Program-made: the position numbers and the translations under genes
Shown here: positions 7,170 to 42,327 of the stretch, piece by piece
How positions within the stretch are numbered: position 1 is the stretch's first letter
How the letters are laid out: each line of letters starts with the position of its first letter
DNA from: Cellulomonas timonensis
GTDB lineage: Bacteria > Actinomycetota > Actinomycetes > Actinomycetales > Cellulomonadaceae
NCBI RefSeq assembly: GCF_900046455.1
Contig: NZ_FCOT01000012.1
Coordinates: forward strand, 248,001 to 312,000
Direction: 5' to 3'
DNA length: 64,000 nt
The notes under the pieces: model-generated
What the model was told of the DNA's origin: nothing
The model's database searches: none
What the model saw: only the letters and a program-made list of their open reading frames with translations

Positions 7170-9335
7170 ATGAGGGTCCTGCGGATCTCCCACAGCGCAG
7201 TCGTCGATGAGTGGCGCCACCGCGAGCGCGCGATCCGCTCCCACGGGCTGCGAGTCCACCTGATCTCGGCCCGCCGCTGGGACGAGGGAGGCCGAGTCGT
7301 CCCCCTGGAGCCCCGCCCTGGCGAGGACGTGCGCGGCGTTCGGACCCTCGGCCGCCACCCCAACCTGTTCGTGTACGACCCGGTGGCGCTGTGGCGCGCC
7401 CTGAAGAGCCCGTGGGACGTGATCGACATCCACGAGGAGCCGTACTCGCTGGCCACCGCCGAGGTGCTCGCCCTGCTCACGTTGCGCCGCCGCCGCACGC
7501 CCGTCGTGCTGTACTCCGCCCAGAACATCGCCAAGCGGTTCCCCCCGCCCTTCGCCTGGCTGGAGCGTCGTGCGCTGCGGCGGGCCGCGGCCCTGTCGGC
7601 GTGCAACACCCAAGCCGGCCGGATCGCCCGGTCGCGCGGCCTGGCCGGGCCGGCGCGGGTGATCGGGCTCGGCGTGGACCTCACCCGGTTCAGCCCGCCC
7701 GACGGGCGTCGGCGCCAGGCGACGCCCTCCGACCTGCCGCAGCCCGATGTGCTGCGCGTCGGCTACGTCGGCAGGCTCGCGCCGCATAAGGGCGTCGACG
7801 TGCTGCTCGACGCCGCCGCGCTCGACCCCCGCATGCGCGTCGAGATCGCCGGCGCTGGCCCGTCCCAGCAGGCCCTGCGCACCCGTGCGGCGCAGCCGGA
7901 CCTCGCCGGGCGGGTGCGGTTCCTGGGCCATCTCACGCCGCCCGCGCTCGCCGAGCTGTACCGCGAGGTCGACGTGCTGGCTGTGCCGTCGCTGCCCACC
8001 CCCGGATGGCTCGAGCAGTTCTGCCGGGTGGCGGTCGAGGCGATGGCCAGCGGCTGCGTGGTCGTCGCGGCCCGGACTGGCGCGCTGCCCGATGTGGTCG
8101 GCGACGCGGGGCTTCTGGTCGCGCCCGGGGATCCCGCCGCGTTGGCGCAGGCGCTCGCCCGCGTGGTCGACGAGCCAGGCCTGGGGCCCTCGCTGCGCGC
8201 ACGTGGGCTCGACCGGGCGGGGCAGTACTCGTGGGAGCGGGTCGGCGCGCAGTACGTCGAGCTGTACGCCGAGGCGGTGCGGACTGGCGGTGGCGCCACC
8301 TCCGCCCGGCATGGGCTGGTCGGAGCGCACCCCGTGCGAGCGGCCGCCCGCACGGACCGTCCCGCGCCCGAGGTCGTCGTCATCGCGTACGGCGCGCCCG
8401 AGCTGCTCGAGCAGTGCCTCGCCGCACTGGGCGACCCGGCGGACGGCACACGCCCCCCGCTGCTGGTGGTGGACAACTCCAGCGACCGGCGCGTGCGGGC
8501 TATCGCGACAGCCGCCGGCGCGGAGTACCTCGACCCGGGCGGCAACCTCGGCTTCGCGGGGGCGGTGAACCTCGCGCTGGGGCGCCGCGCGGAGTCGGGC
8601 GGCAGCACCGACCTGCTGCTGCTCAACCCCGACGCGGCAGTCGACGCGGCGGGGATCCGCGAGCTGCAGCGCGCGCTGCACGCCGAGCCAGGCCTCGCGG
8701 CGGTGGCGCCCACGCAGCATGACGGCGCCGGGGAGCCGGCCCAGGTCGCCTGGCCGTTCCCGTCACCCGTCCGCGCGTGGCTACAGGCGGTGGGCCTGGG
8801 ACGCCTGAGCCGGCGGGAGGACTTCATGATCGGCTCGGTGCTGCTGCTCAACGGCGAGGCCCTCGACGAGGTCGGGACCTTCGACGACGACTTCTTCCTG
8901 TACAGCGAGGAGACCGACTGGCAGTACCGCGCCCGGCAGGCGGGGTGGCGGGCAGTGCTCGTCCCGACGGTCGTGGCGACCCACGTCGGCGGCGCGACGA
9001 GCACCGATCCGGTGCGACGCGAGACGCACTTCCACGCCTCGCAGGAGCGCTACCTGCGCAAACACCACGGGCCGCTCGGCTGGGCGTCCGCCCGGCTCGC
9101 CATGCTCCTCGGCGTCGCCGCGCGCGGGGCCCTGCTGCGCGGCACACGCGGACGTGACGCACGGCGGCGCGGCGTGCTGTACCTGCGCGGCCCGCTGCAG
9201 GTCGAGGCCGCACTGCTCGGCGACACACCGCCCCAGCCGCGCAGGCCTCACCACGAGGATCCGGGACCGAGGCCGGCGGCGCCGGTCCGGACCCGTCACG
9301 GGCGCCACATCGACCGCTCGGGCATCGGCTCATGA
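7170..9335 (+). CDS. Two-domain glycosyltransferase: GT4 fused to GT2
   Basis: From ATG 7170 (MRVLRISHSAVVDEW) the product is about 721 residues. Residues ~1-365 form a GT4-type GT-B enzyme, with VGYVGRLAPHKGVDVLLDA and an acidic motif region near LEQFCRVAVEAMASG. Residues ~390-690 form a rhamnosyltransferase-like GT2 domain with LLLNPDAAV and FDDDFFLYSEETDWQYRARQ. An in-frame ATG at 7074 overlaps the preceding stop and would add 32 Pro/Gly/Arg-rich residues. I prefer 7170 because family homology begins there, but cannot exclude 7074. The fusion implies two consecutive sugar additions by one polypeptide. The stop overlaps the next start by 4 bp. Confidence 0.83.
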   Translation: MRVLRISHSAVVDEWRHRERAIRSHGLRVHLISARRWDEGGRVVPLEPRPGEDVRGVRTLGRHPNLFVYDPVALWRALKSPWDVIDIHEEPYSLATAEVLALLTLRRRRTPVVLYSAQNIAKRFPPPFAWLERRALRRAAALSACNTQAGRIARSRGLAGPARVIGLGVDLTRFSPPDGRRRQATPSDLPQPDVLRVGYVGRLAPHKGVDVLLDAAALDPRMRVEIAGAGPSQQALRTRAAQPDLAGRVRFLGHLTPPALAELYREVDVLAVPSLPTPGWLEQFCRVAVEAMASGCVVVAARTGALPDVVGDAGLLVAPGDPAALAQALARVVDEPGLGPSLRARGLDRAGQYSWERVGAQYVELYAEAVRTGGGATSARHGLVGAHPVRAAARTDRPAPEVVVIAYGAPELLEQCLAALGDPADGTRPPLLVVDNSSDRRVRAIATAAGAEYLDPGGNLGFAGAVNLALGRRAESGGSTDLLLLNPDAAVDAAGIRELQRALHAEPGLAAVAPTQHDGAGEPAQVAWPFPSPVRAWLQAVGLGRLSRREDFMIGSVLLLNGEALDEVGTFDDDFFLYSEETDWQYRARQAGWRAVLVPTVVATHVGGATSTDPVRRETHFHASQERYLRKHHGPLGWASARLAMLLGVAARGALLRGTRGRDARRRGVLYLRGPLQVEAALLGDTPPQPRRPHHEDPGPRPAAPVRTRHGRHIDRSGIGS

Positions 9336-31611: not shown

Positions 31612-32336
31612 CGAGCTCTTTCCATGGGGACGGGCGTGCGGATGAAGGTGGTGTGGATGGCGGGCGACGGAGCCGCCGGCCGATGCTGCGGCAGATGCTA
31701 CGGCGACGGGCTGGCGATGACCCGCGCCCCCGGGACGGGCCCGACGGCGGTGAGCACCGTGTCGGCGACGCCGGCAGCGGTCAGCGCCGCGCCTATCACC
31801 TGCGCGTGGGCCCGGCTGCGCGCCAGCGCCGCCACCGTCGGCCCCGAGCCGGACACGAGGACGCCCAGGGCGCCCACGTCATCCGCCGCCGCGAGGGTCT
31901 CAGCCAGCTCGGGCGCCAACTCGAGGGCCGCGGGCTGCAGGTCGTTGCGCAGCGCGCGCCCCAACGCCGTCGCGTCGCCCGCGCGGAGCGCCTGCAGCAG
32001 CTCCAGGTCGCTGTCCGGCCCCAGGGCACTGGACCCCGAGCCGGCGAGGGCGTCGAACTCCGCGTAGACGCGGGCCGTCGACAGGCCGGCGTCACGCACG
32101 GCGAAGACCCAGTGGTACTCGCCACGGCTGAGCGCCGGGGTCAGCACATCGCCCCGGCCCGATCCGATCGCGGTGTGCCCCACCAGTCCGAACGGCACGT
32201 CCGAGCCGAGACCCGCGGCCAGCTCGTGCAGCTGGTCACGGCTCAGCCCGGCGCCCCAGAACGCGTCGCAGGCGAGCAGCGCCGCCGCCGCGTCCGCCGA
32301 CCCGCCCGCCATCCCCCCCGCCACCAGCACCGACTC

Positions 32337-32436
32337 CCCGCTGTGCTGGTCCACCCCCCCGGCCACGCCGGCCAACTTCGCCAGCGCCCCCGCCGCGCGC
32401 AAGGCCCGGTGCTCGTCGTCCCGGGGCCACCGGTGG
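32337..32436. repeat. Degraded copy of 32488-32587 inside ispE
   Basis: Bases 32337-32436 align without gaps to 32488-32587 (offset 151) at roughly 75% identity by eye. The best-conserved stretch is 32391-32407. Differences are mostly changes to C or G. This fits a low-quality read tail rather than an old duplication. Confidence 0.75.
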
Positions 32437-32459
32437 AGCGACGCAGGCGGAGGGTAAGA

Positions 32460-32487
32460 GGCAGCGTCGGATGTGTATAAGAGGCAG
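32460..32487 (+). other. Residual Illumina Nextera Read-1 adapter with Tn5 mosaic end
   Basis: 32460-32468 is GGCAGCGTC, the 3' part of the Nextera Read-1 tail. 32469-32487 matches the 19-bp Tn5 mosaic end at 17 of 19 positions (core GATGTGTATAAGAG), both differences being A to G. True genomic sequence resumes directly after it, exactly as an insert follows the adapter in a tagmentation read. Confidence 0.9.
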
Positions 32488-32789
32488 CTCGATGTGCAGG
32501 TGCACGCCCTCGTCGATGCCCGCGAACTCCGCGAGGGCGCGCGCCGCGCGCAAGGCCAGGTTCGTGTCGTCCGTGGGCACCAGGTGCGCCTGCGGGCCGC
32601 TGACCGAGAGCGTCAGGCCGTCCCCGGGGGTCGCCACGACGTCCTCGTACACCGACACCGCCTGGAACACGGTCACCAGGGGGTGGTAGCCGTCGGGCTC
32701 GCGGGCGCCGACGCGCAGTCCCAGGTTCACCTTGCCGGGCGCGCGGACCCGGACCTCGGGCTGGCTGCCGATCTCGACGCGGGGCTGAG

Positions 32790-33728
32790 TCACGGCTCCA
32801 CTGTGCCAGGTCCGCCCACGGGCGGCTCGGACTGCTCCACCGGCTCGGGCCGCTCGTCCGCCCGCTCGCGCGCGTGGTCGGCGAGCTGCGCCGCGATCCG
32901 CGCGAAGCCGTCGATGTCCACGCGCTCGCCCCGGGTCTGCGGGTCGATGCCCGCGCCCTCCAGCGCGCGCACGGCCGCCTGCGGGGAGCCGGCGAGTGGC
33001 GCCAGCGCCGCGCGGAGCATCTTGCGGCGCTGCGCGAACGCGGCGTCGACCACGGCGAAGACCTGCTGCCGGGTGGCGGACGTCACCGGCGGGTCCCGGC
33101 GGTCCATGCGCACCAGCGCCGAGTCCACGTTCGGCGCCGGCCAGAAGACGTTGCGGCCCACGGTGGCGGTGCGGCGGGCCGACGCGTACCAGGCGACCTT
33201 CGCGGACGGCACCCCGTAGACGCGGCTGCCGGGGGGCGCGGCCAGGCGGTCGGCCACCTCCGCCTGGACCATCACGAGCACGCGCTCGAGGCTCGGGAAC
33301 CGCTCGAGGAAGGTCAGCAGCACCGGCACCGAGACGTTGTACGGGAGGTTCGCGACGAGCGCGGTGGGCGGCGGGCCCGGCAGCTCGTGCACCTCCAGCG
33401 CGTCAGCCCCGACGACCGTCAGGTCGGCCTCGCCGGGGACATGCGCGGCGACGGTGCCCGGCAGCAGGCCCGCGAGCACCGGGTCGATCTCCACGGCGAC
33501 GACGCTGGCCCCCGCCTCCAGCAGCCCGAGCGTCAGCGAGCCGAGCCCTGGCCCGACCTCGACGACCCGCTCGCCCGCTGTCACGTCGGCCTGGCGCACG
33601 ATCTTGCGGACCGTGCCCCCGTCGAGCACGAAGTTCTGCCCGAGCGTCTTGGTGGGGCGGATGCCCGCCCGTGCGGCCAACTCGCGGATCTCCGCGGGAC
33701 CGAGCAGGGGTCCGGCGGTGGCAGTCAT
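32790..33728 (-). CDS. ksgA: 16S rRNA (adenine1518/1519-N6)-dimethyltransferase
   Basis: The 312-residue protein has [19 protein letters not shown] at the N-terminus, the SAM-binding motif [19 protein letters not shown], and the catalytic [12 protein letters not shown] (the N-[IL]-P-Y motif). A ~30-residue Pro/Glu-rich tail is dispensable-looking. It dimethylates two adjacent adenosines in helix 45 of 16S rRNA during 30S assembly. The stop overlaps the ispE start by 4 bp. A TAGGCT hexamer 7 nt before the ATG suggests a leaderless ksgA-ispE message. Confidence 0.96.
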
Positions 33729-41303: not shown

Positions 41304-42142
41304 CAGCGCTTGCGGGCGGCGAGGGCCGCGGCGTAGAGGTCGCGCTTGGGCACCTGCGCCGCCTCGGCCACCTCGGACACCGCGTCCTTGAGCCGCTCCC
41401 CGGCGTCGGCCCGGGCCAGCACCTCCGCGACCAGGTCCGCCGTGGACACCGCCGCCCGGCCGACGTCCCCGCCCACCACGATCGCGATCTCGCCGCGCAC
41501 GTCACCGGCCAGCGCCCACGCGAGAAGGTCGCCGAGCGGGCCCCGGCGGACCTCCTCGTACGTCTTGGTCAGCTCGCGGCACACCGCGGCGGGCCGATCG
41601 GCGCCGAAGGCCTCGGACATCGCCGCGAGGGTGTCCGCCAACCGGTGCGGCGCCTCGAAGAAGATGAGCGTGCGCCGCTCGGTGGCGAGCCCGGCCAGCG
41701 CCCGCGCGCGCTCGCCGGGCTTGCGGGGCGGGAACCCCTCGAAGCAGAACCGATCGGTCGGCAGCCCGGAGAGCGCCAGCGCGGTGAGCACGGCGCTGGG
41801 GCCGGGCGCGGCCGTCACAGGCAGCCCCGCCGTGACAGCGGCCTCCACCACACGGAACCCCGGGTCGGAGACGGCGGGCATGCCCGCGTCGGTGACCACC
41901 AGGACGGTGCCGCCCCCGGCGACCACCTCCAACAGGTCCCCGGCCCGCTCAGCCTCGTTGTGCTCGTGGTAGCTGACCACGCGCCCGCCGATCACCACGC
42001 CCATCCGGGACGCGAGCCCTCGCAGCCTTCGGGTGTCCTCCGCGGCGACCACATCGGCCTCGGCGAGCAGCCGGCGCAGGCGCAACGACGCGTCCTCCAC
42101 GTCGCCGATGGGCGTCGCGGCGAGCACGAGGCGTCCGGTCAC
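41303..42142 (-). CDS. rsmI: 16S rRNA (cytidine1402-2'-O)-methyltransferase
   Basis: The 279-residue protein shows the tetrapyrrole-methylase fold: [73 protein letters not shown] and [14 protein letters not shown]. These are diagnostic of RsmI (YraL). It methylates the ribose of C1402 in 16S rRNA. It is divergent from pmt, as in mycobacteria. The start is GTG 42142. Its codons ~47-82 are also present, inverted, in the DNA upstream of the gene. Confidence 0.95.
41896..42003 (-). repeat. 108-bp inverted repeat, copy inside rsmI
   Basis: This internal segment of rsmI (encoding [20 protein letters not shown] onward) is the exact reverse complement of 42175-42282. As part of an intact conserved gene it is clearly the original copy. 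Confidence 0.9.
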
Positions 42143-42174
42143 CGGCCGCTGGACGGGGTCCGGCGAGGCAGGGG

Positions 42175-42282
42175 TGGGCGTGGTGATCGGCGGGCGCGTG
42201 GTCAGCTACCACGAGCACAACGAGGCTGAGCGGGCCGGGGACCTGTTGGAGGTGGTCGCCGGGGGCGGCACCGTCCTGGTGG
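42175..42282 (+). repeat. 108-bp inverted repeat, extra copy upstream of rsmI
   Basis: The reverse complement of 41896-42003 without any difference, separated from it by 171 bp. On the plus strand it still encodes the RsmI fragment, then runs to a stop within a few codons. It ends 6 bp before a TATAAC box. It has no gene of its own. Confidence 0.9.
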
Positions 42283-42327
42283 AATGGGTATAACCCCGAG
42301 GCACTGTCCGCGGGCCCGTCGCCCGCC

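Follow-up and report, generated by a model that had tools for sequence, protein, structure and literature searches.

A 151-bp insert interrupting ispE in a Cellulomonas timonensis assembly is very probably an assembly artefact containing Nextera adapter sequence

In this study, we analysed a window of 64,000 nucleotides (the whole stretch of DNA under analysis) from contig 12 of the Cellulomonas timonensis assembly, which comprises 13 contigs and 4.06 Mb. The gene ispE lies on the minus strand of this window, from 32793 down to 31698, and is interrupted by 151 bp at 32337-32487. Judging from the sequence, we assign a probability of about 98% to the reading that this insert is an assembly artefact, composed of Nextera adapter and a low-quality duplicate, and no feature of the organism. 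The first-pass annotation had already proposed a Nextera artefact, and this proposal is now backed by 36 adapter remnants and barcoded adapter arms in the assembly, by their absence from relatives, by an empty site in 7/7 related loci and by the lack of a second ispE. Thus, it is almost certainly the record that is in error at ispE, not the organism, which very probably possesses a single uninterrupted copy of the gene. The insert had originally been placed at 32337..32488; the insert itself was recovered, but base 32488 already belongs to clean sequence, and the last base of the insert is 32487.

From left to right, the insert consists of a degraded duplicate, a filler and an adapter (98 + 25 + 28 = 151 bp; Table 1). 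When 380 offsets were compared without gaps, an offset of 151 gave 63% identity over the 123 bases 32337-32459, while the next best reached 43%. The similarity is limited to 32337-32434, where it amounts to 74%. This agrees with the roughly 75% identical ungapped copy reported earlier for offset 151, which is clearly the best of the 380. The 19-nt mosaic end is the end of the hyperactive Tn5 transposon. At 32460-32487, the adapter and a 17/19 match to this mosaic end had been recognised before, and both were found again: GGCAGCGTC is exact and is directly followed by the mosaic end, whose two mismatches at 32469-32487 are both A>G. The filler (32435-32459) did not match the source of the duplicate, and its similarity to the remainder of the i5 oligo did not rise above chance, a fraction of 0.09-0.18 of the window positions scoring equally well. 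Placed in register, the index GCGTAAGA agrees with the filler at 5/8 positions, which is background level.

Table 1. Features of the interrupted ispE and of a second probable join, in window coordinates.
Feature	Coordinates	Strand	Remarks
ispE 3' part (insert to stop codon)	31698..32336	-	ORF starting within the insert; partial match to TIGR00154, 111.9 bits; 93% identical to L040 of C. cellasea
Degraded duplicate of 32488-32585 (offset +151)	32337..32434	+	73/98 identical; 17/25 changes yield C (+ strand)
Filler, 25 bp	32435..32459	.	Possibly an error-rich continuation of the i5 oligo; i5 similarity at background level
GGCAGCGTC, 3' end of the S5 arm (i5 side of the Nextera adapter)	32460..32468	+	Exact; whole arm 10/14
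Tn5 mosaic end of the Nextera adapter	32469..32487	+	17/19; clean sequence from 32488 on
ispE 5' part (start codon to insert)	32488..32793	-	ORF continuing into the insert; partial match to TIGR00154, 39.2 bits; alignment with C. cellasea obtained
Second probable assembly join, between the presumed rsmI and the following gene	42143..42300	+	Inverted copy, mosaic-end-like stretch and break in the C. cellasea match

As 151 is not divisible by 3, the insert shifts the reading frame of ispE. Without it, 306 nt (32488-32793) and 639 nt (31698-32336) combine to 945 nt, that is 314 codons and a stop codon. This is the frame of 314 residues that the first-pass annotation had obtained by deleting 151 bp, and the ispE of Cellulomonas cellasea ET82 is likewise an uninterrupted frame of 314 codons (314 aa). 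A TIGR00154 search of the own assembly revealed no second ispE; only the two halves were found, each below the family cut-off. The lack of a further ispE match would also be expected if ispE were a true pseudogene in which the adapter lies by chance. However, the reading frame stays open across the ispE portion of both halves, these are close matches to C. cellasea, and the position of the break is exactly that of the adapter. Moreover, an actinobacterium that uses the MEP pathway would be expected to depend on ispE; we therefore consider a pseudogene very improbable. A genuine insertion with Nextera-like sequence that inactivates ispE in this strain has a vanishingly small probability, and nothing in the analysis supports it.

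The first-pass annotation had suggested a search for the adapter in the rest of the assembly, and the adapter indeed recurs there. The 19-nt mosaic end is present in 36 copies with up to three mismatches, while a control with the pattern read backwards gave 0; 23 copies carry two mismatches, 13 carry three, and none carries zero or one. All 36 were found again in the 31 loci that were fetched to cover them. The 14-nt S5 arm adjoins 17 of these mosaic ends with at least 12/14 matching positions and 7 more with 9-11/14, the ispE site being one with 10/14, and at several other sites of the assembly it is complete (14/14). Beside another six, the 15-nt i7-side arm was detected at 11/15 or better, and the remaining six have no recognisable arm of either type. 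Furthermore, the barcode GCGTAAGA joined to the S5 arm occurs at 18 places with up to three mismatches (4 exact, control 0), and the barcode TTCTGCCT joined to the i7 arm at 8 places (same threshold, 3 exact, control 0). Twelve of the 18 S5 places directly adjoin one of the 36 mosaic ends and six lie elsewhere, so the 36 copies are not the full tally of remnants. According to an appendix of PMC7589761, GCGTAAGA is i5 S517 and TTCTGCCT is i7 N703. The recurrence of these two barcodes points to one dual-indexed Nextera-type library. Nearly all mosaic ends (35/36) are at least about 9.8 kb away from any contig end.

Several of these sites show further traits of their own. At L014, L015, L020 and L025, two mosaic ends on opposite strands stand facing or back to back within about 45 to 210 bp, as if adapter-bearing contig ends had been joined. 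Inverted repeats in L014, L015 and L020 pair where the two adapters face each other, while other high scores are mostly self-pairing. The N703 barcode TTCTGCCT with the i7-side arm is exact in L014 and L022 and has 2 mismatches in L028, together with traces of the P7 oligo; these barcoded arms lie in the interior of contigs measuring 0.64 and 1.1 Mb.

Relatives were compared at the same locus. A scan of species genomes yielded 26 loci of relatives, the best of which belongs to C. cellasea ET82 (93% identity). Window bases 32336 and 32488 align to adjacent bases in this genome. Each 150-bp flank was aligned separately and its end projected, and the two flanks met with 0 bp between them in 7/7 loci (L040 of C. 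cellasea and L067-L072 of the same genus); the scores of L040 and L067 are identical, so that the seven may include one genome twice. Hence, there is no target-site duplication and no sequence was lost at the ispE site. At up to three mismatches, no mosaic end was detected in the relatives sample apart from our own genome (18 other genomes, of which six belong to the same genus), nor in the C. cellasea ET82 genome.

These results bear on a biological origin of the insert. If a Tn5-like or MITE-like element had really inserted, or if the strain were a transposon mutant, ispE would be broken as it is here, and the 19-nt mosaic end, which is derived from Tn5, is a feature that the insert has in common with the ends of Tn5 / IS50. 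However, the insert differs from these elements in that 151 bp offer no space for a transposase and paired ends are missing: in the window, on both strands, the mosaic end occurs once at up to five mismatches (control 0), and at six and seven mismatches chance matches appear with both the pattern and the control. The 9-bp target duplication of such an insertion is lacking as well, the flanks being 0 bp apart in the related loci, the arms and barcodes are those of synthetic library oligos, and 36 differently corrupted copies do not represent one element. An insertion of this kind thus has hardly any probability.

A close parallel is the known contamination of draft assemblies by Nextera read-through, in which, like here, S5 and i7 arms with the mosaic end are present in the assembly. 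Among 394 genomes of a sample of the same class, 13 carry the S5 and mosaic-end sequence with up to three mismatches, our genome included. The 12 others comprise, for example, G275, G148 and G130. Exact copies were present, among the matches listed, in at least six other genomes, and many adapter places of the other genomes lie, again among the matches listed, no more than about 60 bases from a contig start. In contrast, the ten S5 and mosaic-end places of our genome all have 2-3 mismatches; its copies never have fewer than two, and 35/36 are at least about 9.8 kb from contig ends. Adaptors are among the common contaminants of NCBI submissions in a table of PMC10898089. Among the paper titles listed in literature searches, none described such joins, which is no proof that such a study is absent.

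Direct duplications provide information on how the adapter came to lie inside the contigs. Clear direct duplicates were detected in 4/31 fetched loci, ispE included, with offsets of 112, 151, 162 and 394; short-period direct repeats (e.g., in L013 and L026 at offsets 15-36 and in L014 at 21) were left out of this count. In all four duplicated joins, the right-hand copy begins at most 8 bp from the end of the adapter. The first-pass annotation had pointed out that 151 is also a common Illumina read length. It is conceivable that one whole read of exactly this length was wrongly inserted; however, the other three clear joins have offsets of 112, 162 and 394, and for this reason the agreement with a read length looks coincidental. 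In addition, the errors of the duplicate fit a + strand tail whereas the orientation of the adapter fits a minus-strand read-through, which would hardly be combined in one read. We regard the insertion of a whole read as unlikely.

The direction of the errors is the same in tails and adapters. Read towards the gap, 43/60 changes in the four duplicated tails yield C (binomial test against one third, 1.5e-9), and when the adapters are turned to the read direction, 55/85 of their changes are to C (3.4e-9), both values treating the changes as independent. The earlier description of an error-rich consensus can be sharpened in that the changes are mostly to C in the read direction. Two facing tails that share one error habit fit contig ends joined through poor read ends. 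On the left flank of the ispE insert (32284-32336), C is likewise the base found at 4/5 positions that differ from C. cellasea, and natural divergence is inseparable from error there; the sharp clean end of this flank at 32336 is perhaps not real for this reason.

Taken as an assembly artefact, the insert could have arisen as follows. In Nextera fragments shorter than the read, sequencing would have continued into the i5 or i7 adapter. Adapter that was exact or nearly so would have been removed on the way, and copies with at least two errors in 19 would have remained. Judged by the habits of read-trimming tools, the lack of copies with zero or one mismatch agrees with a 19-nt filter with a tolerance of one mismatch; a screen at the submission stage is equally possible. 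A 12-nt trimming seed was considered as the filter and is disfavoured: the mosaic end is intact over its last 12 nt in 6/36 copies and has one mismatch there in 13 more. Subsequently, two contig ends may have been joined tail to tail at places that we infer to be weakly covered. At ispE, the left contig would have ended in a low-quality + strand tail overlapping the right contig by 98 bp, and the right contig, viewed from the + strand, would have begun with at least 28 bp of adapter containing errors. With an identity of only 74%, the overlap would have gone unrecognised, leaving both copies and the adapter in the record. Some observations fit this origin less well: the filler shows no barcode above chance, six mosaic ends have neither arm, six barcoded S5 places do not adjoin any of the 36, and a clear direct duplicate is present in only 4/31 loci.

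The contig-12 loci were also compared with C. cellasea, rows of 150 bits or less being dropped. Five of the 11 loci, the ispE site among them, matched the reference stretches taken, and the other six had no match there. At three other joins, 171, 168 and 307 bases stand in place of 64, 84 and 130 bases of the reference, respectively. Short stretches of the genome are thus missing at the three joins that can be compared with C. cellasea. At one further adapter site of our genome, L017 (C12:390345), the match to the C. cellasea stretch used is confined to the left side, and from this alignment the join may be wrong besides being dirty.

The insert matters for quality control only, as a warning about this assembly. 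Dozens of adapter remnants are present in it, and genes may look split at these places; despite this, the assembly scores 99.98% complete. Since a filter set to allow a single mismatch would miss error-bearing copies of the adapter such as these, looser searches may uncover them in further public genomes.

A second region of the window, at 42143-42300, is probably another assembly join, as far as can be judged from alignment. It lies between a gene that we take by its sequence to be rsmI and the next gene. Positions 42172-42282 are a 99% inverted copy of 41896-42006 (111 nt) and are followed, at 42282-42300, by a stretch that resembles the mosaic end with 8 mismatches. The match to C. cellasea breaks off at 42140 and, the inverted piece apart, restarts at 42300, exactly where the mosaic-end-like stretch ends; the region stands in place of about 180 bp present in C. 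cellasea. It is this position together with the inverted copy that makes a join probable, as 8 mismatches alone would be meaningless. Possibly reflecting natural divergence, further short breaks between the window and C. cellasea lie near 8300, 9240, 11780, 27540, 55230, 60550 and 61510.
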